Shown: positions 8,241 to 38,533 of the stretch, piece by piece
How positions within the stretch are numbered: position 1 is the first letter of the stretch
How the letters are laid out: each line of letters begins with the position of its first letter
Virus record (IMG/VR): IMGVR_UViG_3300037260_000016
Location: 1 to 40,226 of that record
Direction: 5' to 3' (one strand)
DNA length: 40,226 nt
Source of the DNA: a virus
Notes under the pieces: generated by a model
Seen by the model: the letters and a program-made list of their open reading frames with translations, nothing else
What the model was told of the DNA's origin: nothing
Databases searched by the model: none
Translations under genes and position numbers: made by a program

Positions 8241-8708
8241 ATGGCCAAGAAGAAGCAACCTAATCCCCCCGGCGATCCTCTTACTCCCCGAAAGAGGAGC
8301 AAGCCCGACTGGGCTCCCGCGTTCTTGCAGCGCCTGAGTGAGTGCGCCAACATCCGCGCTGCCTGTATCGCTGTCGGGACGTCACGGACTGCGGTCTACC
8401 ATCGCCGCAATACCGACGAAAAGTTCGCCCAGGCCATGGCGCTCGCGCTAGAGGATGCCGTCGATGATCTGGAGCTGGAAGCGCGTCGCAGGGCATATGA
8501 GGGCTGCGAGAAGCCTATTTTCCACCAGGGCGAGGAATGCGGGCGGATCAAAGAGTACTCGGACACCCTGATGATTTTCTTGCTGAAGGCACATAGGCCG
8601 GAGAAGTACAGGGAGAGGTACGAAGTGAAGCAGACGGGGGCAGTGGTGAGTTTGACGGCGGCGGATTTGAGTGACGACGAGTTGGCGCGAGTCGTGAAGG
8701 GTGAGTAA
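8241..8708 (+). CDS. terS: terminase small subunit
   Basis: A 155-residue DNA-packaging protein that would recognise phage DNA and hand it to the large terminase. Seen: a basic N-terminus (K-K-K, R-K-R-S-K), a helix-turn-helix-like stretch (C-A-N-I-R-A-A-C-I-A-V-G-T-S-R-T-A-V-Y), a helical middle (A-R-R-R-A-Y-E-G) and 'Y-S-D-T-L-M-I-F-L-L-K-A-H-R-P-E-K-Y', a signature I recall from many phage small terminases. GAGG (8230-8233) lies 7 bases before the ATG. The large subunit follows one gene later. The end overlaps the methyltransferase start by one base (TAATG). Confidence 0.88.
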   Translation: MAKKKQPNPPGDPLTPRKRSKPDWAPAFLQRLSECANIRAACIAVGTSRTAVYHRRNTDEKFAQAMALALEDAVDDLELEARRRAYEGCEKPIFHQGEECGRIKEYSDTLMIFLLKAHRPEKYRERYEVKQTGAVVSLTAADLSDDELARVVKGE

Positions 8709-9460
8709 TGCCGAAGCGTAGGCCACTGCTGCTTGATCTGTTTTGCGGAGCTGGCGGATGTGCAATGGGCTACCATCGAGCAGGATTTGACGTTGTCGGC
8801 GTAGATATAAAACCACAGAAAAACTACCTATGCAGTGGAGCGATAGGTTTCATACAAGCGGACGCTATCGATATACTGAACCACCTAGTTCTCTATCCAC
8901 ATGATGGCCTGTATGACAATAATAATCGTGGTTATGTCTTGGACTGCTTCGATCTAATCCATGCTTCGCCACCATGTCAAGCTTACAGTCGATGCAGGCG
9001 CATCGGAAACAGTCGGCCAACCCAGGATCTCGTTGCACCCATTCGCCGCCTTCTGAAGAAGGCGGCGAAGCCCTATGTCATCGAAAACGTGGAAGGTTCG
9101 CCTTTACATTTTCCGACTCTTTTGTGTGGGAAGATGCTCGGTTTGAAAACCCGCCGGCATCGTTTATTTGAGTCGTCCATCCTCTTGCTCGCTCCTAAAG
9201 CATGCAATCATCAGCCCGGAGATATTATCGTCTTTGGCCATTCCGTTGAGCTTATAGGTTCAAAAACAACTCCCTACAAAGATGCATCTGGGCGAATCCA
9301 TTATCGACGCCAGCGATTGCCGCTTTCAAGCGGCAATAAAGCAATGGGAATCGACTGGATGAATCGAGCCGAGATTAGCCAGGCCATCCCTCCTGCCTAC
9401 ACCGAGTATCTGGGTCGTCAGTTGATTCGAGCGATCGAACAGGGCAAAGCATCATGCTGA
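8708..9460 (+). CDS. DNA (cytosine-5) methyltransferase, short form
   Basis: A 250-residue enzyme transferring methyl from S-adenosylmethionine to cytosine in DNA. Motif I L-F-C-G-A-G-G (11-17), catalytic P-P-C-Q (88-91, Cys90), E-N-V-E-G-S (126-131) and R-R-H-R-L-F (149-154) are present; the C-terminal 'A-I-P-P-A-Y' is also familiar. It is shorter than restriction-type enzymes (330-420), so its target-recognition region must be small. No restriction partner is nearby, so self-protection of phage DNA is likely. It sits between the two terminase genes and its DNA is visibly AT-richer than the terminases, suggesting later insertion. A 13-bp perfect palindrome lies at 9042-9069. Confidence 0.88.
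   Translation: MPKRRPLLLDLFCGAGGCAMGYHRAGFDVVGVDIKPQKNYLCSGAIGFIQADAIDILNHLVLYPHDGLYDNNNRGYVLDCFDLIHASPPCQAYSRCRRIGNSRPTQDLVAPIRRLLKKAAKPYVIENVEGSPLHFPTLLCGKMLGLKTRRHRLFESSILLLAPKACNHQPGDIIVFGHSVELIGSKTTPYKDASGRIHYRRQRLPLSSGNKAMGIDWMNRAEISQAIPPAYTEYLGRQLIRAIEQGKASC
9042..9069 (+). repeat. 13-bp perfect palindrome in the methyltransferase gene
   Basis: TTCGCCGCCTTCT (9042-9054) and its exact reverse complement (9057-9069) around a two-base centre. It encodes R-R-L-L-K-K-A-A between motifs IV and VI, where a family alignment would show whether it is an insertion. Confidence 0.85.
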
Positions 9461-22563: not shown

Positions 22564-23454
22564 ATGACAGCACCCGTATACGGCTATCAGGCACAACTCG
22601 GTATCGACACCGCCAACCCCGTTACCGTCCGTTACGACTTCCAGACCGAGAATTTGGCGCTGGACGAACACTTCGTCGATACCAACGGTCTGCGTGGCAC
22701 GCGCGCTCGATCGATCGAGCGTATTCGTGCTGGCAACCGCTATGTCCACGGCCAGCTCCACATGCAGCCGACCGCCGTTGAGCTGGCCGGCTTACTCCCG
22801 TGGATCTTGTACGGCGCCCCTTCAGGGTCCGGGACGGTGACCTATCCCCTCGCGGATGCGATGCCAACGGCGCGGTATATCGCCGTTGATTTGGGCGAAA
22901 GTGTAAACACTTACAATGGGTGTCAGGTCGATCGCTGCACGATCCGGGGCAGTCAGGGCCAGCCTATGGACTTCATGATCGACGTGGTTGGCATTGATGA
23001 AACGGTCGGGGCAAATGGGACATTCCCAGCGCTGAGTCTCGACACAACGACAGGGCCGTTCATGTTCACGGACCTGGTGCTGTCCGTGAATTCGACCACG
23101 TACATTGCGAAAGACTTCGAGCTGATCATCGACAACGCCATTGATAAGGAGCGATTCTACAACAGCCAGACGTTGACGGCGGCGATCGCGATGGATCGGC
23201 ACATCACGCTCCAAACGCACCTTCCGGCAGGGATTGCGGAGGCAGTGTATGGGGTGGGGCCGGGAGGGATGCCGGTGGTGGCAACCTTTACCGGGGGTGG
23301 GACGTCGGTGCTGACGCTGACGTTTGTCAAAGTGGCGTTTCCGCGAAAAAGTCCGACGTATGTGGCGGGAAGGAATGAGGAGTTGTTACCGATGATGGGG
23401 ACTGCGTATAAGAGTGGGGCAACGTTGGAGTTGGTTACGACGCTACATGAGTAG
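22564..23454 (+). CDS. major tail tube protein
   Basis: 296 residues; forms the hollow tail. The N-terminal pattern (Q-L-G-I-D ... F-Q-T-E-N-L-A-L-D ... N-G-L-R-G-T-R, then P-T-A-V-E-L-A-G-L-L-P-W-I-L) matches phage tube proteins of the Phage_tube_2 type as I recall them; the C-terminal part is beta-rich. It lies two genes before the tape measure, and no sheath gene is present, which argues for a non-contractile tail. Confidence 0.75.
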   Translation: MTAPVYGYQAQLGIDTANPVTVRYDFQTENLALDEHFVDTNGLRGTRARSIERIRAGNRYVHGQLHMQPTAVELAGLLPWILYGAPSGSGTVTYPLADAMPTARYIAVDLGESVNTYNGCQVDRCTIRGSQGQPMDFMIDVVGIDETVGANGTFPALSLDTTTGPFMFTDLVLSVNSTTYIAKDFELIIDNAIDKERFYNSQTLTAAIAMDRHITLQTHLPAGIAEAVYGVGPGGMPVVATFTGGGTSVLTLTFVKVAFPRKSPTYVAGRNEELLPMMGTAYKSGATLELVTTLHE

Positions 23455-28080: not shown

Positions 28081-30234
28081 ATGGCAGACATCCACGGCGA
28101 CGTAGGCTGGAACGGAGCGATAGCGGTTGAGTCGCTATCCTACACGATCAGCCACGGGATTTCCCCGGGGACCGCCGTTCTCCAGATTCAGCCCCAGTCC
28201 ACCTTCCCCGATGAACAGGGTGATCTCACGATCACCGATGGCAATGAAGTAGTTGTGATCCCCAATTGCAAGATCGACAATTACCACGTTGATCAGGACC
28301 AGTCAGGCCAGATCGTGTCTCTCACTATCGTGGATCGGCGCTGGAAGTGGCGCGATCTCGGCATTATCAACGGGATGTTTAACCAACTCGACCCGCATGG
28401 GAAGCTACTGCCCTGGACGATCCAATCTCCCACCGAACTCGCGATTCGTTGCCTGCAAGCGATGGGGGAAGTCGGTTATGACATCGACATGCCAGCAGGC
28501 ATCAACTACCCCGGGCCGTACACCAGCACCCCAATCATAAACACGAGTGGGACGAACCCGCCGGTGAACTGGGTCGCGAAACCTCCCGCGCAGGCGCTGC
28601 AAGAACTGTGTGACCAGTATGGTCGCCGGCTGGTATACCAGTTCTCGACCGATTCCGTTGTGATCGCCCAGATAGGCGATGGGGGACCGTTGCCGCTCAA
28701 TGGCTCTATCTACAAGCAGGGGCCGAGCATCAAGTCACCTGAGACACCGGACGCCATTGGCGTCGTTGGAGCGCCAACGCGGTACCAGATGTTGCTATTG
28801 CTCGAAGCAGTGGGGCTGGAATGGGATGGGAGCTATCGGCCCATCGCGGAACTGAGCTATGCCCCCCGCCGGGGGGCATTACCGCAGATCAGCACGGCGA
28901 CGGTCGTTTATGACGGCGAAACATCTGGATTGACGTATGAAATCTACCTGGGAGCCGGGGCCAACGAGGATACCGTGAGCGGGGTTCTGTTCTCCTTCTC
29001 GCCTTCCACTTCAGATACTTCCGCTTCGATAGCGTCCGATCTTGCAGCGGCGATAAATGGCAGTGACGACCTCCGAATTTCAGGGAAGATGACCGCGATG
29101 GCGTCAGGTGGGAAAATCACCATCACGGCGACCAAGACGGGAGTTCCATTCCAGTTTCTATCGCTGCTCGTCTATGGAGTGGATGTGTCGCTCACCGGCA
29201 AGGACAGTTTTAATTCTGCGCTCGATCAAGCCGCCGTAGTAGGTGGAAAGAAGGGAGATTGGACCCAGTCCCCACCGGGCGAATTCCCGGACGTCCAGTC
29301 AACCAATCGACTCACCTACTGGCAGGCCCGCGAACTGGCGAAAAAGTCCGTGTGGAGGTGCTACCAGGTTGTCAACGTTGACGCCTCCGGCAAAGGGGGA
29401 ATCAACGTTCCCGGCTATGCCGAAAACCCGTTGACCCGTCGGCAACAACTGCTGATCAGTGGTTACCAGGTCACGCAGATTGTCCCCCAGCCACTTGACG
29501 CTACTCTGCTCGGGCCGGACGGTCGGCCGACGACAGTAGACTTCTACGCCGCTTACAGCAAAGATAAACCCGCTGCCGTATACGGCAGCGTCGCGTTTCA
29601 AATCTTCAACCCAAACTTCGTCACCGTTCCTCCGCCTCCCCTGAACACGAACGTCGATTCCCAGGTAATTATCCCCTTCAGTGTGGACCCCGATTACCAG
29701 GTCATCACGTTCAGCCAACCCGTCTACCAGAACGGCGGTGTCTGGGGAAGCGACCTGTACGTTGACCCGGGATTGGTGTTGCTCTGCGCAGTGCAAGTCC
29801 GCGATGCGGATACGAACCAGTTCGACGCCTACACCAAGGTTGTTCCGCTGCCCGGACAGGCTTCTCTCACGAACCCCAAGTTCGAGTTACACACGGACGT
29901 GCAGCTCAACGTCGTGGGGCAATACGACGTCAACAACAACATCGTGGGTGTGCAAATTCTCGAAGCGGACCCCATCGTGCGGGCGGACTATTATCTCCAG
30001 GGGATGGCGCTACAGTACAACCTGAGCGGGGGGCAAACGATACAGTACAACGGGATTCGCGCCATCGACCTGGATGGGGCCATCCAGCAGGTAAGCTGGA
30101 GTGTCGGGCCGGGCGGTTGTTCAACGACGGCCTCGTTGAACACGGAGCACAATTGGTATATCCCGCCCTACCCAGCGCGGAGGAGAGCGGAGTATTTGCC
30201 GCCGTTTTTGTCGCCGCGACAGAATTTGCCGTGA
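28081..30234 (+). CDS. large tail/baseplate hub-like protein
   Basis: 717 residues. N-terminal (1-250) mixed domain (V-E-S-L-S-Y-T-I-S-H-G; V-S-L-T-I-V-D-R-R-W-K-W-R-D; L-C-D-Q-Y-G-R-R-L-V-Y) resembles hub proteins at the tail tip. An inserted repeat module (about 280-360) resembles residues 30-92 of the preceding protein. The C-terminal third is beta-rich. It lies between tail-tip and fibre genes, which fits a hub. A 20-bp palindrome (29571-29590) and a C-run hairpin (28859-28879) are inside. Confidence 0.52.
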   Translation: MADIHGDVGWNGAIAVESLSYTISHGISPGTAVLQIQPQSTFPDEQGDLTITDGNEVVVIPNCKIDNYHVDQDQSGQIVSLTIVDRRWKWRDLGIINGMFNQLDPHGKLLPWTIQSPTELAIRCLQAMGEVGYDIDMPAGINYPGPYTSTPIINTSGTNPPVNWVAKPPAQALQELCDQYGRRLVYQFSTDSVVIAQIGDGGPLPLNGSIYKQGPSIKSPETPDAIGVVGAPTRYQMLLLLEAVGLEWDGSYRPIAELSYAPRRGALPQISTATVVYDGETSGLTYEIYLGAGANEDTVSGVLFSFSPSTSDTSASIASDLAAAINGSDDLRISGKMTAMASGGKITITATKTGVPFQFLSLLVYGVDVSLTGKDSFNSALDQAAVVGGKKGDWTQSPPGEFPDVQSTNRLTYWQARELAKKSVWRCYQVVNVDASGKGGINVPGYAENPLTRRQQLLISGYQVTQIVPQPLDATLLGPDGRPTTVDFYAAYSKDKPAAVYGSVAFQIFNPNFVTVPPPPLNTNVDSQVIIPFSVDPDYQVITFSQPVYQNGGVWGSDLYVDPGLVLLCAVQVRDADTNQFDAYTKVVPLPGQASLTNPKFELHTDVQLNVVGQYDVNNNIVGVQILEADPIVRADYYLQGMALQYNLSGGQTIQYNGIRAIDLDGAIQQVSWSVGPGGCSTTASLNTEHNWYIPPYPARRRAEYLPPFLSPRQNLP
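29571..29590 (+). repeat. 20-bp perfect palindrome in the hub gene
   Basis: CGCTGCCGTA directly followed by its reverse complement. One of several unrelated perfect palindromes in genes of this window. Confidence 0.8.
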
Positions 30235-30249
30235 GGGAAATGGAAAGTA

Positions 30250-32193
30250 ATGGACCCTAACGGCGATTTCTCAACCAACACCTACCGTCCTTCGATCCGT
30301 TGGGTTCCCGTCCAGAACACCGATCCCACCCCCGCGCCCCCCTATGCCATCATGGCTGTCGTTGGCCTCACCACAATCAACGGAGTCGCCGTCGTCCAGG
30401 TCGCCTGCCCCTCGTCTCAGCAGACCGCCTATCTTCTCAATGGCGGGACTCCCATCCCCCCTGGCTGGATCGGCCAAGGGCACGAGACTTTTCCCGCTAT
30501 CGCGGGGTACAACGCCGATGAAGATGAAACTCCCGTCGTCGGCGAAATGTGGGGACCAGAGGCGGGGACGTGGTTGTTGTCGCGCCACCGAGTCGGCTAT
30601 TTAGTGCTGGGCGGTGCGACCTCACAACTGGTCAACGTCACCAAGCAGGACGACGGGTGCCGAGATGTCCAGATTTTGCAGGGGGATGGCACTGGTCGGT
30701 ATTCCTGGCGGGAGATGTTGGCCATCCCTGGCGGGGACTATGTGGTCCGCCCCAGCGGGATGACGGGCAATTACCAGGACAATCCAGCCTGGGAACGGAA
30801 TTTAGTCACCGATGTCCCGGCGGGATCTATCGTCCGCATTTGTCCTGGGGCTGGATCGAGTAGCACGGTCGGGTTGCCGACAACTACCACAACGACGACT
30901 ACAACGACGACTTCCTCGCCACCCACGACCGCGTACCCCCTCTGCCACCCCGGCACCACAACGCCCGCCCCAACCACAACGACGACCACAACGCTCCCGC
31001 CCCACCCTCTGCCCGACTGGCGCTTCAGTTATTGCTGTGGCACCAGCGAAACCACAACGACTACAGCTGGCCCTGCTATCGCGAACTCTTGCGTGGGGAA
31101 TTGTCAGTGGACGTGGGATAGTTCGAGCAGCACTTGGACATTGTATTGCTCGGATTGTCAGACTCAGCCGGGATGCGTTTGCCAGCAGCCGACGTACTGC
31201 GGTAGCACCAATGGGGAGATCACCAATACAGGGTGTGTCCCATACGAAAATGCAGCCCCGTGTTGCTCGACTACGACCACGACGGAGCCGGCAACGACGA
31301 CTACGACGATCCCACCAGGGTGCGGGGGTACTTGCACCTGGATCTACCAAAACACCGGCCGATCCGATGGCGGCTCCTCCCCTCAATACTGGCTGTCCAT
31401 CAACGGCTGTAGTGCGATCTGCCCCTGCGCCTATCCCCCCATCACCGGCGAGGAGGAATGCGGCGATACCTACGTCACCAACTGCGTGGTGCCAGAGCCG
31501 ACGACCACGGAAGCGCCGCCCGGCTGCTCGGGGAGCTGTACTTGGCAATGGGTACCGACAGGCAACGAAGACGGCACGTTTGACTGGGCCCTCTACGGAT
31601 ATACGTGCGGCGATGGCTGCACTTGCTACCCACCCGATTATGACGGCGACCCGTGCAACCCCAACGGGGTTACGTCCTGCCTCTCGGTTGATGGCGGACC
31701 CGGAGGAGGGTACACCACCTCCAATCCCTGCTCGCCAACCACATGTGCCCCATCAGCGTGCTGTGGGCAGTGCATCTTCTCGGGGGATGGAAGCGGTGGA
31801 TGGGATTTAGTACGGGGAAACTGTACCCCGGATATGCTGTGCGGTTGTGTCGCTCCAAGTTACTCGTCCAGCTCAAGTAGTCAGACCCAGTCGGTCCTCT
31901 GCGCTCCGGGCGTTGCGACTACGACAACCACCACAACGACCATAACGACGAGCACGACAACGACAACCGCGGGACCGTGCTCGGGAACCTGTATCTACCA
32001 ATGTGAAGGCGATTTCAACGCCCATCTCATCAGCTCCGCGTGCAGCACGGGCTGTTCCTGCCCCCTTGAGCTCGAAGACATCGTCTTCTGCGAGAACGCG
32101 GGCACTTATTTCAACTATTCGGCGTGCAACACGACGACCACGGCTGCCCCTGGCACCTCAACTAGCAACGGACCCAGCACACTACCACCATGA
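30250..32193 (+). CDS. tail fibre with five Cys-rich modules on poly-Thr linkers
   Basis: About 647 residues. 1-205: a globular domain (W-V-P-V-Q-N; T-T-I-N-G-V-A-V-V-Q-V). The rest is poly-Thr linkers (211-221, 242-248, 341-355, 557-572) and five Cys-rich modules at about 281-329, 358-412, 426-477, 504-551 and 576-625. Each has the plan C-x-G-x-C-x-aromatic ... W-x-L ... C ... C-x-C ... C ... C, six to eight Cys per module, so disulfides or metal binding are likely. Mucin-like Thr linkers could be glycosylated; two glycosyltransferase genes follow directly. The end overlaps the next start (ATGA). The repetitive DNA is prone to module gain and loss. I do not recognise the module as a named family. 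Confidence 0.72.
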   Translation: MDPNGDFSTNTYRPSIRWVPVQNTDPTPAPPYAIMAVVGLTTINGVAVVQVACPSSQQTAYLLNGGTPIPPGWIGQGHETFPAIAGYNADEDETPVVGEMWGPEAGTWLLSRHRVGYLVLGGATSQLVNVTKQDDGCRDVQILQGDGTGRYSWREMLAIPGGDYVVRPSGMTGNYQDNPAWERNLVTDVPAGSIVRICPGAGSSSTVGLPTTTTTTTTTTTSSPPTTAYPLCHPGTTTPAPTTTTTTTLPPHPLPDWRFSYCCGTSETTTTTAGPAIANSCVGNCQWTWDSSSSTWTLYCSDCQTQPGCVCQQPTYCGSTNGEITNTGCVPYENAAPCCSTTTTTEPATTTTTIPPGCGGTCTWIYQNTGRSDGGSSPQYWLSINGCSAICPCAYPPITGEEECGDTYVTNCVVPEPTTTEAPPGCSGSCTWQWVPTGNEDGTFDWALYGYTCGDGCTCYPPDYDGDPCNPNGVTSCLSVDGGPGGGYTTSNPCSPTTCAPSACCGQCIFSGDGSGGWDLVRGNCTPDMLCGCVAPSYSSSSSSQTQSVLCAPGVATTTTTTTTITTSTTTTTAGPCSGTCIYQCEGDFNAHLISSACSTGCSCPLELEDIVFCENAGTYFNYSACNTTTTAAPGTSTSNGPSTLPP

Positions 32194-33965
32194 AAAAACC
32201 AACACTTACGATCGGGATGGCACACCACGACGATTTCAGTGGGGTCTACTTCTCCGTACAGGCACTACGCCTGTATCACGCGGAGGTTATGCCCCAAATT
32301 GAAATCGTCGTGGTGGACAGCTCTCCCGAATCAGCTGACGGAAAAGCAGTCCGCGTTTTTCTGGAGGAGTGGGTCAAAGGTGATGTGGCGGGGGTGAAAT
32401 ACATCCCGATGCTGGAGCCGAAAGGGACGGCTCCTCCGCGCAACAGGGTATTCCAAGAAGCCTCGGGTGAGTATGTGTTGTGCATGGATTGCCATGTGCT
32501 CATCCCGCCCTTTCGCATCGATCAACTGTTGGAGTATTATCGAGCCAATCCCCAAGCCCGTGATCTACTCTCCGGCCCCATGATCTACGACGATCTCCGC
32601 AACCGCGCAACCCACTTCGCGGATGAGTGGCGCGGCGAAATGTGGGGAACGTGGAACACCGACCTACGCGGCGATCCCTATTTGCCCGGCTATACGGGGG
32701 AGCCGTTTGAGATCCCCGCACAGGGTTTGGGGCTGTTCACATGCCGCAAAGACGCCTGGTTGGGGTTTAACCCGAACTTCCGGGGATTCGGCGGGGAGGA
32801 GTGGTACATACACGAGAAGTTCCGTCGAGCTGGCCACAAATGTCTGTGCCTGCCCTGGCTGGGGTGGGTGCATCGGTTCGGCCGGCCGGGCGGGGCGAAG
32901 TATCCGCTGACGCGGTTCGACAAAGTCCGGAACTATGTCATTGGGCATCGGGAGTTAGGGTTGCCGCTCGATCGGGTGCATGAGCACTTCGTGAAGTCGG
33001 GACTGATGAAACAGGGGGAGTGGGACGCGATTCTGGCGGGGGGCGAAGCGTTGCCACTGGGAGGTTGTGTTGGGTGTGGTGGGACGTCAGGTCAGCCAGC
33101 GGCGAGTGACCCCTATTTGTCGGCGAAACCAAATACGCTGGAAGAGTGGTACACGCACGCGCTTAAAAACCAGGGGATTGGGAAGCACTTGCCGAAGCTG
33201 CGAGAACTGGCGAGCCAGGCGGATTTTGTGACAGAACTGGGTGGGGATCGTTCCGCGTCAACGGTGGCGTTGGCGGTGAGTGGTAAGGAGGTGTTGGTTG
33301 TCGATCCTCGCGAGTGGCGGGAGGATGTTTGGTTGGCCGAAATGACGAGCCGAAAGGTGCAGTTCGTTCGCAAACGAAGCGAACAATGCGAAGAGGCGTT
33401 CAGCCTCCATTCAGACTCTGGGGAAGGACTTCTATTTATCGACACGGTTCACACGGCGAACCAGGCGTACGCGGAACTGGTGCGCTTTGCACCGTACCAC
33501 TCTCGGATCGTCTTCCACGATACGGCGACCTATGGAGAGACGGGCCAAGACAAAGGACCGGGGCTACTCCCAGCCCTGCGACGATACATGCGCGAGCATC
33601 CGGAATGGTCCGTGATCTACCACACTCAGGAACAGTATGGGCTCACCGTAATCTCACGTAATCCAGCCGACAAAAAGCCCCTTCCCTCGGTCATTACAAT
33701 GGGGTGGAACTACGCCAAATCACTCACAAAACATGCCGCAACTGGGGCGAAGGTGTTGCCGGCGAAACAGGTCGAGGCGAGACTGGCAATCTGTCTGACG
33801 TGTGAGCAGCGAACGGGGAATCGATGTGCCGTGTGCGGGTGTTTCCTCGATGAGGCTCCGCCGCCGATGCAGCCCAAAGCGTTGTGGGCCGAGGCGGAAT
33901 GCCCGCTCGGGAAATGGCCGTTACCGATGGTGGAAGCAAAAGAAGCGAAGGAGGCGAAGAAATAA
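32190..33965 (+). CDS. three-domain enzyme: GT-A glycosyltransferase, methyltransferase-like, zinc ribbon
   Basis: 591 residues. 1-260: family 2-type glycosyltransferase (I-E-I-V-V-V-D-S-S, L-C-M-D-C-H with a DxH metal site at 100-102, G-G-E-E at 201-204, W-V-H-R-F). 315-480: a Rossmann-like domain (E-L-G-G-D-R-S-A-S-T, V-L-V-V-D-P-R, L-L-F-I-D-T-V-H-T, I-V-F-H-D-T) like CmcI-type methyltransferases. 529-575: a zinc ribbon (Cys535, 538, 546, 549, 551, 571). Likely adds a sugar, possibly methylated, to a protein or glycan. It follows the Thr-rich fibre by a 4-bp overlap, so the fibre is a possible target; this is inference. Confidence 0.75.
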   Translation: MKKPTLTIGMAHHDDFSGVYFSVQALRLYHAEVMPQIEIVVVDSSPESADGKAVRVFLEEWVKGDVAGVKYIPMLEPKGTAPPRNRVFQEASGEYVLCMDCHVLIPPFRIDQLLEYYRANPQARDLLSGPMIYDDLRNRATHFADEWRGEMWGTWNTDLRGDPYLPGYTGEPFEIPAQGLGLFTCRKDAWLGFNPNFRGFGGEEWYIHEKFRRAGHKCLCLPWLGWVHRFGRPGGAKYPLTRFDKVRNYVIGHRELGLPLDRVHEHFVKSGLMKQGEWDAILAGGEALPLGGCVGCGGTSGQPAASDPYLSAKPNTLEEWYTHALKNQGIGKHLPKLRELASQADFVTELGGDRSASTVALAVSGKEVLVVDPREWREDVWLAEMTSRKVQFVRKRSEQCEEAFSLHSDSGEGLLFIDTVHTANQAYAELVRFAPYHSRIVFHDTATYGETGQDKGPGLLPALRRYMREHPEWSVIYHTQEQYGLTVISRNPADKKPLPSVITMGWNYAKSLTKHAATGAKVLPAKQVEARLAICLTCEQRTGNRCAVCGCFLDEAPPPMQPKALWAEAECPLGKWPLPMVEAKEAKEAKK

Positions 33966-33967
33966 TC

Positions 33968-34711
33968 ATGTCCCTGCCATTGGCGAGCTGTCTCTGTCCC
34001 ACTTATGGCCGAGCACCAAATCAACTGTGGCTCCTCGGGGAAGCTGTCGAGTGCTTCCTTCGCCAGGATTACCCCGGGCCAAAGGAGTTGATCATCCTGA
34101 ACGACACCCCAGGCCAGTGGTTGGAGTGCGACGTCAAAGAAGTCCGCATCCTCAACGTCCAACAACGCCTCAGTTCGATCGGCGCGAAGCGTAACATGCT
34201 GACGCATGCCGCGCGGGCCGATTCCGTGTGCCTGGTCTGGGACGACGATGATATTTCACTTCCCGGCCGGATTAGCCAGACGGTCGTTAAACTTCTCTAC
34301 GCCAATCCGACCGGGCAAGCTGACTACTTTAACCCCGGCTGTTCGTTCTGGCTCGATCGCGACACGCTCCACAGCGACCACAAACACCAATGCACCCACA
34401 ACGCTTCCGCGTACACGGTCGAGGGGTGGAAGAGCGTGGGGGGGTATCCGGATCTTAGTATGGGCGAGGACCAGGAGATGGATAAGCGGATGAAACTGCT
34501 GTGCAGAACAGCATCGAGCGTTTCGGCGCGAGATCCATCCGAGTGGCAGTACGTGTATCGGTGGGGATGGTCCGATTTCCATATCTCCGCTTGTCCAACT
34601 CCCGAAAGTGCCTATGCCGTTCGAGGAATTCGCCTGCCACAGCAGGGAACCTTCGAGATCACCCCGGGGTACACGGAGCGTACTCGAAAAATTCTCGGGC
34701 ACTTACTCTAA
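33968..34711 (+). CDS. family 2-type glycosyltransferase
   Basis: 247 residues with the GT-A pattern: S-C-L-C-P-T-Y-G-R (7-15), L-I-I-L-N-D-T (41-47), R-N-M-L (75-78), the acidic metal site W-D-D-D-D-I-S (91-97), and a later G-E-D-Q-E-M. It transfers a sugar from a nucleotide donor. Start 33968 avoids overlap with the previous gene; AAGGAGG (33948-33954) lies 13 bases upstream. It is the last gene of the tail block; motif site C follows six bases after its stop. Confidence 0.82.
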   Translation: MSLPLASCLCPTYGRAPNQLWLLGEAVECFLRQDYPGPKELIILNDTPGQWLECDVKEVRILNVQQRLSSIGAKRNMLTHAARADSVCLVWDDDDISLPGRISQTVVKLLYANPTGQADYFNPGCSFWLDRDTLHSDHKHQCTHNASAYTVEGWKSVGGYPDLSMGEDQEMDKRMKLLCRTASSVSARDPSEWQYVYRWGWSDFHISACPTPESAYAVRGIRLPQQGTFEITPGYTERTRKILGHLL

Positions 34712-35320: not shown

Positions 35321-35710
35321 GTGGAACCGTTACCCCCCATTAACGTGGGGCTCTTGATCGCTTCTCTCAGTGGCTCGATGGTCTACTGTTTCGTTCGCCC
35401 AGACCGAGAAAATGCGTGGCGATCATTGGGGGCTATCGCGTCTGGTGCCGCGGTGGGATTCTGGCTGGCAGGACCGACGTGCGATTACTTGCACTGGGAT
35501 TCCCAGCGAACGCTTTACGCTGTGGGATTTGGAGAGGGATTACTCGGCATTACGCTGGCGAAAAGCGTGCTGTTCGTCGCTGAGAAGAGCGTGACGCAGG
35601 TGTTTTCGGGTGTGGCACAGAAGTGGCTCGGGAAGCCCCCGGAGTTGCCGGGACCACCAGGTCCGCCGGGACCGGTTGGCCCAACTGGCCCCCATGAACC
35701 GCCCAGGTGA
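35321..35710 (+). CDS. holin-like membrane protein with collagen-like tail
   Basis: 129 residues, GTG start after AAGGGGG. Three hydrophobic segments (about 8-25, 32-52 and 66-85; e.g. V-G-L-L-I-A-S-L-S-G-S-M-V and G-L-L-G-I-T-L-A-K-S-V-L-F-V) suit a holin that makes holes in the inner membrane. The C-terminus carries five or six Gly-Pro-Pro-type triplets (G-P-P-G-P-P-G-P-V-G-P-T-G-P), which is unusual for a holin and could form a triple helix. Confidence 0.55.
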   Translation: MEPLPPINVGLLIASLSGSMVYCFVRPDRENAWRSLGAIASGAAVGFWLAGPTCDYLHWDSQRTLYAVGFGEGLLGITLAKSVLFVAEKSVTQVFSGVAQKWLGKPPELPGPPGPPGPVGPTGPHEPPR

Positions 35711-35733
35711 TTTTTCTGATGAAAGGGAGAGTA

Positions 35734-37002
35734 ATGGCAGAGAAAGTAAAGGCGATTTCGACGATCAAAAAGCGCGTGGCCAAACGAGGCCACGACGCCT
35801 TTTTCATCCACCGCGACAGGATGCGGTATGGCCATCCCACCCGGAGTTTCCGACTTCCGTCCGGCTTTAGTGTGCCGGTTACCACCCTGCCGGTGGATTC
35901 AACCGGCAATGCCGCTGTCTCGTGTCCGATGGATGGCAACGACACGCTCGGCGACTGCGGCGAGGCAATGGTGTGCCACGCGGATAACATCCTGACCTTC
36001 GGTCAAGGAAAGACCGGGTTCACGGAGAGTACCTTTGATCTGACGGCGCTCGAGAATCAGTACGAGCAGGTTTCCGGGGGTGACAATGGCCTCGACGAGG
36101 ACATGGTCATCAACCAAATCTGGATGGTCGGCATTGCTGGCAACACCAAAGCCATCATCCTCGACTCGCTCGATTTTGACGTCACCAACATCCCGCTGAC
36201 CCAGTTCATCATCGATCAGTTTTATGTGTTTCAGATGGCGTGGAGTGTTCCGGATGCGTTCCTGGACGGGTTCGACACGGGGACTGTGTGGTCTGGAACG
36301 GGCATTCCCGATCCCAACAATGGCCATTTCGTGACGGTCGGCGACGTTGGCGGACCCAACACGACAGCACCAAATGGGACCAACGTAAACGGGGCGTATC
36401 GGCCGTTCACGTGGGGGGCGTGGTGCTGGATGTTTCCCAGTTATGTCGCGAGCGTGCAGCCGGCCTGCTTTGTCGTGTTCTCCCCACGCCAGTTCAACGC
36501 CCAGGGCTATGACAGCAAGGGCCGACACGTCTCCACTCAAGCCCAAGTATGGGTCGCTTGTGGCGGCGACTCCACGAAGGCAGCTGCAGTCGTCGCGATG
36601 TTCCCGCCGGCTACCAACACGACGACTACTCCAGCGCCCTCGCCAGTGCCGACGACCACGACTCAACCACCCTCTCCTGCTCCGCCCATTCCGCCAACGC
36701 CGTCGCCGGCGAGCAGCGTCATCACGATTGACACCAATGGACTGACGGTATACGTCCCGCCGTCTTGGGCTGTCGTCCAGGGTAGCTTGGTTGGCCCGGC
36801 TCCATCCGCCGTCAACCCGTTGATCTTCATTCAGGTGATCGAAGTCATCGTCACAGATATGGCGGCTGGCAAGTCGATCACGCAGGTGATCGAGGACGTC
36901 GTCGCTCTGTTCACGGCGACAAAAACGCCGATCCCACATGTGGTCGCGACCAGGATCGTCCAGGAGGTGGTGTACAAACTCGAAAGGCTGAGGGTGAAAT
37001 GA
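35734..37002 (+). CDS. papain-like-fold protein with GDC motif
   Basis: 422 residues. N-terminal part has G-N-D-T-L-G-D-C-G-E-A (68-78; Cys75) and G-H-F-V-T-V-G-D (197-204; His198), a Cys/His pair in the order of papain-like enzymes; it resembles a hypothetical family with 'NDxxGDC' I recall in bacteria and phages. A Thr/Pro linker (about 295-330) leads to a C-terminal domain (about 335-422). ATG 35734 with GGGAGA upstream is preferred over GTG 35707. Place in the lysis block suggests a wall or surface hydrolase, but activity is unproven. Confidence 0.55.
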   Translation: MAEKVKAISTIKKRVAKRGHDAFFIHRDRMRYGHPTRSFRLPSGFSVPVTTLPVDSTGNAAVSCPMDGNDTLGDCGEAMVCHADNILTFGQGKTGFTESTFDLTALENQYEQVSGGDNGLDEDMVINQIWMVGIAGNTKAIILDSLDFDVTNIPLTQFIIDQFYVFQMAWSVPDAFLDGFDTGTVWSGTGIPDPNNGHFVTVGDVGGPNTTAPNGTNVNGAYRPFTWGAWCWMFPSYVASVQPACFVVFSPRQFNAQGYDSKGRHVSTQAQVWVACGGDSTKAAAVVAMFPPATNTTTTPAPSPVPTTTTQPPSPAPPIPPTPSPASSVITIDTNGLTVYVPPSWAVVQGSLVGPAPSAVNPLIFIQVIEVIVTDMAAGKSITQVIEDVVALFTATKTPIPHVVATRIVQEVVYKLERLRVK

Positions 37003-37721
37003 GGCACGCGCTAGCGTTTTGTTTACTCTTCCTCTCGGCTGGCCTGGGGCTGGCCGAGCTGAAGATTACGGGACCGAACAAGGTGGAACCAAACCACCTT
37101 GTTCGGTTGTCCGCTGATGGGGCCGCGGCGGATGCCGCGTTGATCTGGGACTGTGACAGAGAGGACCAGATTGACGTTGAGGAAGTAAATGGTAGGTACT
37201 TATTTGCCGGGCCAGCCGGGACGTACAAGATCAAGCTGCGGTCGATCCGGCTGGATGCCGGAAAAACAAAAGTCGAGACGGCGCGGATAACGGTCGTAAT
37301 TGGGGAGCCTGTTCCGCCAGTTCCACCAACGCCTCCGAATCCACCGGTCCCACCAACACCCCCGGCCCCGCCAGCTCCAATTCCGACCGCTGGCTTTCGC
37401 GTCTTGATCATCTACAAGGAAAGCGACGTGGGGAAACTCACTCCGGGCCAAATGGCGGCGATCTACGGGAAGGACACTCGTGATTACCTCAATTCTAAGT
37501 GTGCGGTCGGCCCTGACTCGAAAACGAAGGAGTGGAGGATTTACGACGCGGGAGTAGATGTCTCGGGGGAATCGGAGGTGTGGAGGGGGGCCATGAAGTT
37601 GGAGAGAAAAACACTTCCGTGGATCGTGGTGTCTGATGGAAAGGCGGGGTTTTCAGGTCCGCTCCCGGACAAGATCGAGGACACAAAAGCCCTGCTCTCG
37701 AAGTACGGGGAGGGAAAATAA
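36999..37721 (+). CDS. secreted protein: beta domain, Pro linker, thioredoxin-like domain
   Basis: 240 residues. A signal peptide (A-L-A-F-C-L-L-F-L-S-A-G-L-G-L-A, cut near 19), an Ig-like domain (20-102), a Pro-rich linker (104-128), and a C-terminal domain with G-F-R-V-L-I-I-Y-K-E-S-D-V and L-P-W-I-V-V-S-D-G, a thioredoxin-like form I recall in planctomycete proteins. A redox CxxC is absent. It overlaps the neighbours by 4 and 1 bases. A 13-bp perfect inverted repeat (37074-37106) lies near its start. Confidence 0.7.
   Translation: MRHALAFCLLFLSAGLGLAELKITGPNKVEPNHLVRLSADGAAADAALIWDCDREDQIDVEEVNGRYLFAGPAGTYKIKLRSIRLDAGKTKVETARITVVIGEPVPPVPPTPPNPPVPPTPPAPPAPIPTAGFRVLIIYKESDVGKLTPGQMAAIYGKDTRDYLNSKCAVGPDSKTKEWRIYDAGVDVSGESEVWRGAMKLERKTLPWIVVSDGKAGFSGPLPDKIEDTKALLSKYGEGK
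37074..37106 (+). repeat. 13-bp perfect inverted repeat in a secreted-protein gene
   Basis: CCGAACAAGGTGG (37074-37086) and its reverse complement (37094-37106) around a 7-base loop. It encodes the first strand after the signal peptide. Confidence 0.85.
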
Positions 37722-38533
37722 TGGGCCAGATGGTTACGATAACGGATAACAATTACCTCAGTCATTTCCACCCCACCGTTGACGGAGAATTCAAGCGACA
37801 CGGCCTGATGCCGCGCAACTTCAAAACAAAGCCGACCGGTTACTGCGCCTTTGCTCCCAAGTTCGATATCCCGTTGATCCCTGAGAGCGAATGGCAGGGG
37901 AGGCTCGATGCTCAAAAAGCCGCCAGGGCGAGGTTGTCCGACATCCGGGAAACAGGGATGTTTGGCTCTCGAATTCCGTCCCGCGACCAGGATGGGAAGG
38001 GGTATTGCTGGGCTCACAGTTCCACGGGAGCCGCCCTACTTCTGCGCGCTCGCGATAATCAGCCCTACGCGGATCTCAGTGCCTTCGCCGTGGCTTGCAT
38101 GATCAAGGGATTCCGCGACGAGGGGGGTTGCGGGATCGACAGCACGGAGTTCATAGCGACCAAGGGTATTCCCACTGCGGAGTTCTGGCCACAGCAGTCG
38201 ATGCGTCGGGATTGCGACAACCCACAGACGTGGGAAAACGCAGCGCAGAACAAGTTCATTGAGTGGATGGACTTCGGCAATCCCGGATCGGACCAAATGT
38301 GGGCCATGCAAGTCACTTGTGCACTGCTCGCCATCCCCGTAGTGATCGACCTGAACTGGTGGGGGCATAGCGTGTGTCAGATGGACGTCACATCGCTGAA
38401 GCCCCGCAAGATCCTGATTCTGAATTCGTGGGGCGATAGTTGGTCCGAGAATGGAGCTGGCGAACTCGAAGAATCCAGAGCGATAGCGGATAGCGCCGTC
38501 GCTCCGCGCGTGATACTGGCGTCCCTCGTCTAG
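37721..38533 (+). CDS. papain-family (C1-like) cysteine protease
   Basis: 270 residues. The C1 order is clear: Gln90 and Cys96 in Q-D-G-K-G-Y-C-W-A-H-S (90-100), His216 in N-W-W-G-H-S-V-C (212-219), Asn235 in I-L-N-S-W-G-D-S-W-S-E-N-G-A-G (233-247). No signal peptide is visible; the first 60 residues may be a propeptide or docking part. Planctomycete envelopes have much protein and little peptidoglycan, so a protease in the lysis block could help release the phage; it might also be in the virion. The start overlaps the previous stop. Confidence 0.85.
   Translation: MGQMVTITDNNYLSHFHPTVDGEFKRHGLMPRNFKTKPTGYCAFAPKFDIPLIPESEWQGRLDAQKAARARLSDIRETGMFGSRIPSRDQDGKGYCWAHSSTGAALLLRARDNQPYADLSAFAVACMIKGFRDEGGCGIDSTEFIATKGIPTAEFWPQQSMRRDCDNPQTWENAAQNKFIEWMDFGNPGSDQMWAMQVTCALLAIPVVIDLNWWGHSVCQMDVTSLKPRKILILNSWGDSWSENGAGELEESRAIADSAVAPRVILASLV

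Follow-up and report, generated by a model that had tools for sequence, protein, structure and literature searches.

A putative poly-threonine adhesin of uncultivated tailed phages and its polypeptide GalNAc-transferase-like neighbour

The serine-rich-repeat systems of streptococci pair a Ser/Thr-rich adhesin with transferases of its own that are encoded beside it; there, the enzymes GtfA/GtfB are cytosolic and of the GT4 type, and the adhesin is exported by an accessory Sec pathway. To our knowledge, only a very small number of phage systems have been shown to glycosylate virion proteins, and the initiation of mucin-type glycosylation is considered a eukaryotic trait. Mucin-type initiation by GT27 polypeptide GalNAc-transferases has been described for animals (PMC4202792), and O-GalNAc on Ser/Thr is stated in PMC5504323 not to occur in bacteria. 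Virion glycosylation is known in the mycobacteriophages Che8 and Rita (Freeman et al. 2023, as cited in PMC11256854 and PMC12619734). Our own literature search found no paper joining poly-threonine, phage and glycosylation.

Here we describe a gene pair from an IMG/VR virus record, taken whole (40,226 bases; hereafter the window). We propose, with a probability of about 0.68, that the first gene specifies a tail adhesin, that an enzyme of the phage itself O-glycosylates the poly-Thr linkers of this adhesin, and that the two genes constitute a cassette of uncultivated tailed phages.

A family of cysteine-rich modules strung on threonine runs

The array gene is an ORF that is open throughout and that encodes an N-terminal domain, poly-Thr linkers and five Cys-rich modules (Table 1). 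An earlier note on this DNA had described five modules beginning CxGxC, and this description was borne out. In particular, the protein contains five CxGxC starts and no more (at aa 281, 358, 426, 504 and 577), and the plan C.G.C-x(9-24)-C-x(3-5)-C.C-x(8-25)-C matches it five times; among 20,000 composition-preserving shuffles of aa 275-640 the plan was absent from 19,646, matched once in 351 and twice in 3, and never matched more than twice. The W-x-L that had been written into the plan is present only in modules 1, 3 and 4, its place being taken by Y-W-L in module 2 and by A-H-L in module 5. Likewise, the statement that Thr runs of up to eleven join the modules holds only in part: an 11-Thr run exists, but it precedes module 1, where it separates the N-terminal domain from the Cys-rich part of the protein, and modules 3 and 4 are joined without any run. 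Between the other modules lie runs of 5 and 5 Thr (modules 1 and 2), of 3 (modules 2 and 3) and of 8 and 5 (modules 4 and 5), such that runs of 3 to 11 Thr occur before, between and after the modules with the exception of that single junction. The codons within the runs are mixed (25 ACG, 12 ACA, 12 ACC and 7 ACT) and identical neighbouring codons are rarer than expected (0.17 versus 0.31), so the runs look as though they have been kept for their amino acid. A fresh DNA slippage repeat was considered as the origin of the runs and ruled out by the mixed codons.

Table 1 Features of the array locus and its surroundings, in window coordinates
Feature	Position	Strand	Extent or composition	Evidence or remark
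Minor tail protein (PHROG 290)	22564..23454	+		E 7.6e-12; marks tail gene region
Upstream protein	28081..30234	+	717 aa	No strong family match; hub/tail-tip-like by position only
Module-array gene	30250..32193	+	647 aa, 47 Cys, 110 Thr	ORF, composition, homologous arrays in other phages
N-terminal domain	30250..30864	+	about aa 1-205	
Longest Thr run	30880..30912	+	11 Thr, aa 211-221	Ahead of module 1
Further Thr runs	30955..31065	+	3, 7 and 5 Thr, within aa 236-272	
Module 1	31084..31242	+	aa 279-331	HMM 42.9 bits
Linker, modules 1-2	31270..31308	+	TTTTTEPATTTTT	
Module 2	31315..31491	+	aa 356-414	HMM 29.9 bits
Module 3	31519..31686	+	aa 424-479	HMM 36.7 bits; module used for AlphaFold2, pLDDT 92
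Module 4	31750..31908	+	aa 501-553	HMM 32.4 bits
Linker, modules 4-5	31918..31968	+	TTTTTTTTITTSTTTTT	
Module 5	31972..32130	+	aa 575-627	HMM 26.3 bits
Glycosyltransferase	32190..33965	+	591 aa	PF00535, 3e-8; pp-GalNAc-T-like catalytic domain about aa 1-270
Methyltransferase-like domain in transferase	33282-33521	+	aa 365-444	Methyltransf_24 (PF13578), weak, 0.002
Second GT2-type glycosyltransferase	33884..34711	+		PF00535, 7.8e-5

We found no close relative of the whole array protein in IMG/VR viral contigs or in 50,697 phage records, and searches with peptide patterns of modules 2 and 3, back-translated into DNA, yielded no confirmed relative. Homologues were found only by means of DNA patterns of fixed Cys/Gly/Trp spacing, most of whose matches were due to chance and served as controls, and then with an HMM built on the window's own five modules, a search that the earlier note had suggested. 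Upon iteration this HMM identified 153 modules in 30 IMG/VR records (the window included) and in four metagenome-assembled bacterial genomes, planctomycete genomes among them; the modules are not confined to one phage and are widespread among uncultivated phages. Their consensus is PPCTGTCTWQWDGTGGWVLVSNTCSGGCSCDPPTGPGTSDGETATTPCVT, in which six Cys are near-invariant. Two further, optional Cys columns (16 and 107) are occupied together in 22 of 132 modules and alone in 9 and 3, respectively (Fisher p=5.8e-15; non-redundant modules cut at 75% identity, with the caveat that related sequences are not independent). Co-occurrence of this kind is a mark of a disulfide and lends support to the view of the modules as disulfide modules; module 5 of the window has both members of the pair. 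Two tandem modules in a Chloroflexota-binned contig (L219, aa 219-345) are nearly identical, and this recent duplication implies that module copy number is still changing.

Structure prediction of a single module, likewise suggested beforehand, gave a confident fold: the AlphaFold2 model of module 3, computed with 58 modules, has three strands and a pLDDT of 92.2. Among the chains examined, Foldseek returned nothing for this fold at E<=0.001 in the PDB or in BFVD, and the best VIA re-alignment reached a Z of 2.9. Note that the domain is just 56 residues long and that the missing match to this predicted fold does not show the fold to be new. No model of Pfam, PHROGs or NCBIfam matched the array protein of the window, no significant sequence match was found in the PDB, and the 58 modules gave a single match in Pfam (Myb), which was spurious. 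A clear match to a known repeat family would have refuted the earlier description; one was looked for and not found, and the module could not be placed at the time because it is absent from every library searched. As far as sequence evidence goes, the module is a real and undescribed family.

Several candidate matches were rejected. The tick complement inhibitor RaCI3 (PDB 5hcc) matched weakly, in sequence with an E of 0.004 and in structure with a Z of 2.9 over 44 residues, which we took as chance; the sequence match disappears once the Thr linkers are left out of the module 5 query, and the profile of the module family does not find RaCI3. Matches to a thrombospondin repeat (7r84, E 0.055) and to a squash trypsin inhibitor (E 0.14) were also judged to be chance.

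The adjoining transferase and its predicted fold

The stop codon of the array gene overlaps the start codon of the transferase gene (ATGA). Beyond the domains given in Table 1, the 591-aa transferase is closed by a small C-terminal domain. A Pfam scan of the protein gave, besides Glycos_transf_2 and the weak Methyltransf_24 match, only a weak match to DUF6171, and no ricin-type lectin domain. The methyltransferase-like domain might O-methylate a glycan. A homologue of the second GT2-type gene comes after the first transferase in four other loci, and a possible role for its product is that of glycan extender.

An AlphaFold2 model of the transferase, computed with 19 homologues, has a pLDDT of 91.3 and a pTM of 0.91. 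When this model was compared with the PDB using Foldseek, the best 50 matches were all polypeptide GalNAc-transferases (pp-GalNAc-Ts), with a best E of 1.8e-14 and TMq values of 0.59-0.75. VIA-align gave Z scores of 20-24 for 29 pp-GalNAc-T entries over about 250 residues, the next family being represented by a chondroitin polymerase (Z 19.4); identity to the pp-GalNAc-Ts over the structural matches is about 16-20%. The sequence profile of the transferase points to the same enzymes: bacterial GT2 enzymes in the PDB aligned with its first half only (best 6h1j, E 3.8e-7), and only pp-GalNAc-Ts (GalNAc-T10, E 3e-5; GalNAc-T4, E 9e-5) spanned both halves. The alignment with GalNAc-T10 pairs DCH with DSH, GFGGEE with WGGEQ and VHRF with GHIY (the later His; RVGH in T10). 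The DxH, GGE and HxF motifs of pp-GalNAc-Ts are retained, and residues D100, H102, G202, E203, E204 and H228 are invariant in the 19 homologues.

On the strength of the model, the transferase fold appears nearest to that of the mucin-type initiators, with the reservation that GT-A folds resemble each other and that the donor sugar cannot be read from a model. We take the transferase to work like a GT27 enzyme; its membership of that family is not shown, and both the use of UDP-GalNAc and activity on Ser/Thr peptides are inferred from genetic linkage only. The earlier characterization of the linkers as mucin-like, which dealt with the array gene alone, is strengthened by the presence of a pp-GalNAc-T-like enzyme next door. 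When two members of the transferase family were used as tblastn queries, none of 50,697 sequenced phage records gave a match; a terminase control worked in this search.

Association of the transferase with threonine-rich genes

We examined the linkage from both sides. Beginning with the arrays, 21 of the 30 module-bearing IMG/VR records contain a PF00535 domain downstream of the array, on the same strand and within about 1.3 kb, and most of these domains begin within 150 bases of the array; in three of the nine records without one, the contig ends at the array. Anywhere in the record, PF00535 was found in 23 of 30 module-bearing records versus 3 of 50 control records. Homologues of the window transferase itself adjoin arrays in other loci (phmmer E 1e-34 to 1e-176), and one lies downstream of the array in 11 of the 12 module loci from bacterial genomes, with an E of about 1e-96 or better.

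Beginning instead with the transferase, whose alignment was the only query, we scanned IMG/VR and obtained at least 556 relatives, the best 80 of which were scored for an upstream ORF with a T6 or [TS]8 run. Such a run was present in the adjacent upstream ORF of 43 of these 80 loci. Among the other ORFs on that strand in these loci, 19 of 687 had one (Fisher p=2e-33), and among the ORFs of 254 control loci, 14 of 5264 (Fisher p=2e-72); when the transferases were clustered at 80% identity, 21 of 38 clusters had an upstream Thr/Ser run. Cys modules were present in about 20 of the 80 loci, and in many others, on contigs of up to about 200 kb, poly-Thr occurred without the module, suggesting that the transferase goes with poly-Thr as such. 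The pairing of array and transferase is seen repeatedly, in phages of many kinds, and suggests that phage fibres are given a coat of sugar by the phages themselves.

In the remaining 37 of the 80 loci the adjacent upstream ORF has no Thr/Ser run, so other substrates are possible for the transferase family. Close homologues of the window transferase in L362, L363, L364, L367 and L396 come after a 506-aa gene without Thr runs, and these enzymes may have another substrate. Within the window, two parts of the protein encoded at 35707-37002 are joined by a Thr/Pro-rich linker (NTTTTPAPSPVPTTTTQPPSPAP), and the transferase could act on this protein as a second substrate. Conversely, L126 has poly-Thr arrays, yet no GT2 is found in its 31.9 kb contig.

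These associations bear on whether the Thr runs are simply unmodified flexible spacers, with no more meaning than the linkers of other multidomain proteins. Secreted modular enzymes often have Thr/Pro-rich linkers, and the linkers of the modules do differ in length and composition, as plain spacers might. However, plain spacers would not be expected to be strongly associated with one transferase family, as the runs are when tested from either side, and we consider this explanation unlikely.

Some arrays depart from the poly-Thr pattern. Those in L217:1-1626, L424:9338-12476, L150:12929-14653 and L169 have poly-Ser linkers and no GT2 partner. In L424, the 12th of the bacterial-genome loci, a GT25 (PF01755) gene lies close by, and in L217, an array from a Gemmata metagenome-assembled genome (MAG), a GT25 (PF01755) domain lies in the same frame; the linker residue and the type of transferase thus seem to change together. 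The sole array gene without any Thr/Ser run (L237/L310; L310:14958-16490) has a single module, and is followed by a gene for a fused mannosyltransferase-like (PF11051) and methyltransferase protein.

Alternatively, the transferase might alter the host surface, in the manner of serotype conversion, thereby blocking superinfection or changing the receptor and so being linked to a receptor-binding gene. Serotype-converting transferases are present in temperate phages (according to PMC12619734), and many module loci lie in bacterial chromosomes. A host-surface target nevertheless leaves unexplained both the poly-Thr partner in phages whose upstream proteins are quite different and the switch to GT25 where linkers are poly-Ser. 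Moreover, the partner transferases look like cytosolic GT-A enzymes, a judgement made without a dedicated membrane-helix tool. For these reasons we regard modification of the host surface as improbable.

Tail context, host and proposed role

Besides the minor tail protein, the window encodes a terminase, a portal and a tail-completion protein. The window genes that adjoin the array gave no strong tail match, and the assignment of the window array to the tail rests on its relatives and on the minor tail protein 6.8 kb upstream. In other loci, 9 of 10 proteins tested that are encoded one or a few genes upstream of arrays matched tape-measure PHROGs, with E values from 1e-43 down to a weak 1e-3-1e-4; L301:8166 and L302:3961 were blank in this test, and a neighbouring gene covers each. 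The tape-measure neighbours of the relatives, together with the tail genes of the window, place the array in the distal tail region, an inference made without virion data. The distal tail region is the usual place of tail-tip and fibre genes. The earlier designation of the protein as a fibre is supported to the extent of this tail-region location; its presence in the virion is not shown. The N-terminal domain is weakly similar to the N-termini of the module proteins of L269, L240 and L009 (phmmer E 6e-7, 5e-4 and 7e-4, respectively), and we infer that it is the virion anchor.

Two other genes of the window may be mentioned. Downstream of the array, at 37721-38533, lies a Peptidase_C1 (papain-like) gene, as also at L308:139-966 and L310:17445-18344, whose product is perhaps a maturation or lysis enzyme. 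Between the genes for the small and large terminase subunits, an ORF at 8708-9460 appears by eye to be DNA cytosine methyltransferase-like.

When searched with the module HMM, 8 of 95 genomes matched in the family of the Gemmata MAG (several of them on multi-megabase contigs, one with four loci), as did 1 of 294 genomes sampled across the phylum of a Planctomycetaceae MAG; none of 299 genomes matched in the Acidovorax phylum, a group for which there was no positive control. Given the occurrence of modules in planctomycete genomes, the family likely has a planctomycete host, as by extension does the window, and many module-bearing tailed phages probably infect Gemmataceae-like planctomycetes; the relatives in this way support the planctomycete-phage context that had been suspected.

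The same loci in bacterial chromosomes raise the possibility that the lysogen displays the array protein on its surface or secretes it, and that it is not a part of the virion. Cys-rich, mucin-like proteins are indeed typical of cell surfaces. Against such a role, the modules are rare in planctomycete genomes at the frequencies just given, head, portal or tape-measure genes are found in several of the bacterial-genome loci, the array gene comes after tail genes in relatives, and inspection of the window protein by eye reveals no evident signal peptide; we think a lysogen protein quite improbable. Least credible is that the transferase modifies phage DNA to give hypermodified bases and lies beside a fibre gene by accident: DNA-modifying phage glycosyltransferases are well known (as cited in PMC12619734), but homologues of this transferase directly follow the array in many divergent phages and in all but one of the bacterial-genome loci, poly-Thr genes lie upstream even where the module is missing, the predicted fold is nearest to peptide-modifying enzymes, and no base-hypermodification genes were identified in the window, for which no specific search was made.

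If, as we favour, the pair is an adhesin with its own glycosylating enzyme, gene 1 would encode a tail-region adhesin, built of an N-terminal anchor and, after it, five three-stranded beta modules that are stapled by disulfides and carried on poly-Thr linkers. Gene 2, whose translation is coupled to that of gene 1 via the ATGA overlap, would encode a cytoplasmic GT-A glycosyltransferase that acts like a polypeptide GalNAc-transferase and adds sugar to the hydroxyls of the Thr runs ahead of assembly, a catalysis that we infer and have not observed. The second transferase may then extend the glycan, and the methyltransferase-like domain may cap it. Glycans of this kind would stiffen and protect the linkers as a mucin-like bottlebrush, and the stiffened linkers would hold the knobs out, allowing multivalent binding to the host cell surface at the tail tip; the adhesin role and its binding are likewise inferred. 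The disulfides of the modules could form only once the cell has lysed or in a compartment that is oxidising, and we have counted this against the cassette.

A broader reading, which we hold only tentatively and think somewhat more apt to fail than to stand, is that uncultivated phages possess a prokaryotic mucin system, in which a pp-GalNAc-T-like family serves the poly-Thr tracts of several kinds of tail protein, the module arrays among them, and may be related to whatever gave rise to the animal enzymes. With acceptor and pp-GalNAc-T-like enzyme in one gene pair, O-glycosylation of a phage virion becomes directly testable, and the transferase family provides a rule by which poly-Thr glycoproteins can be predicted. 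With the pair come, in addition, a new disulfide module for receptor binding and a handle on attachment in planctomycete phages, which are almost unstudied; if active, the transferase would be a compact enzyme of prokaryotic origin with which bacteria could be made to produce mucin-type glycopeptides.

Though there are no glycan or virion data, the pair would represent phage virion glycosylation in a new form. Its transferase resembles the GT27 enzymes in having a predicted GT-A fold over the whole catalytic domain, the DxH and GGE motifs and the later His, and a presumed acceptor that is dense in Thr/Ser and repetitive; it differs from them in being encoded by a phage and in having a methyltransferase-like domain where they have a ricin-type lectin domain, and its donor and acceptor are unproven. 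As the sources on mycobacteriophages describe them, those phages are alike in encoding transferases for their own structural proteins (the structural role of the array being inferred from its tail context), but their glycans are on capsid and tail-tube subunits near the C-termini, whereas the presumed target here is a tail-region, poly-Thr array of Cys modules, and both the transferase and the gene order are different. The likeness of the window pair to the streptococcal serine-rich-repeat adhesins is one of function: both window transferases match GT2 (PF00535) and none GT4, and the first is phage-borne and has a fold that is predicted to be GT27-like.
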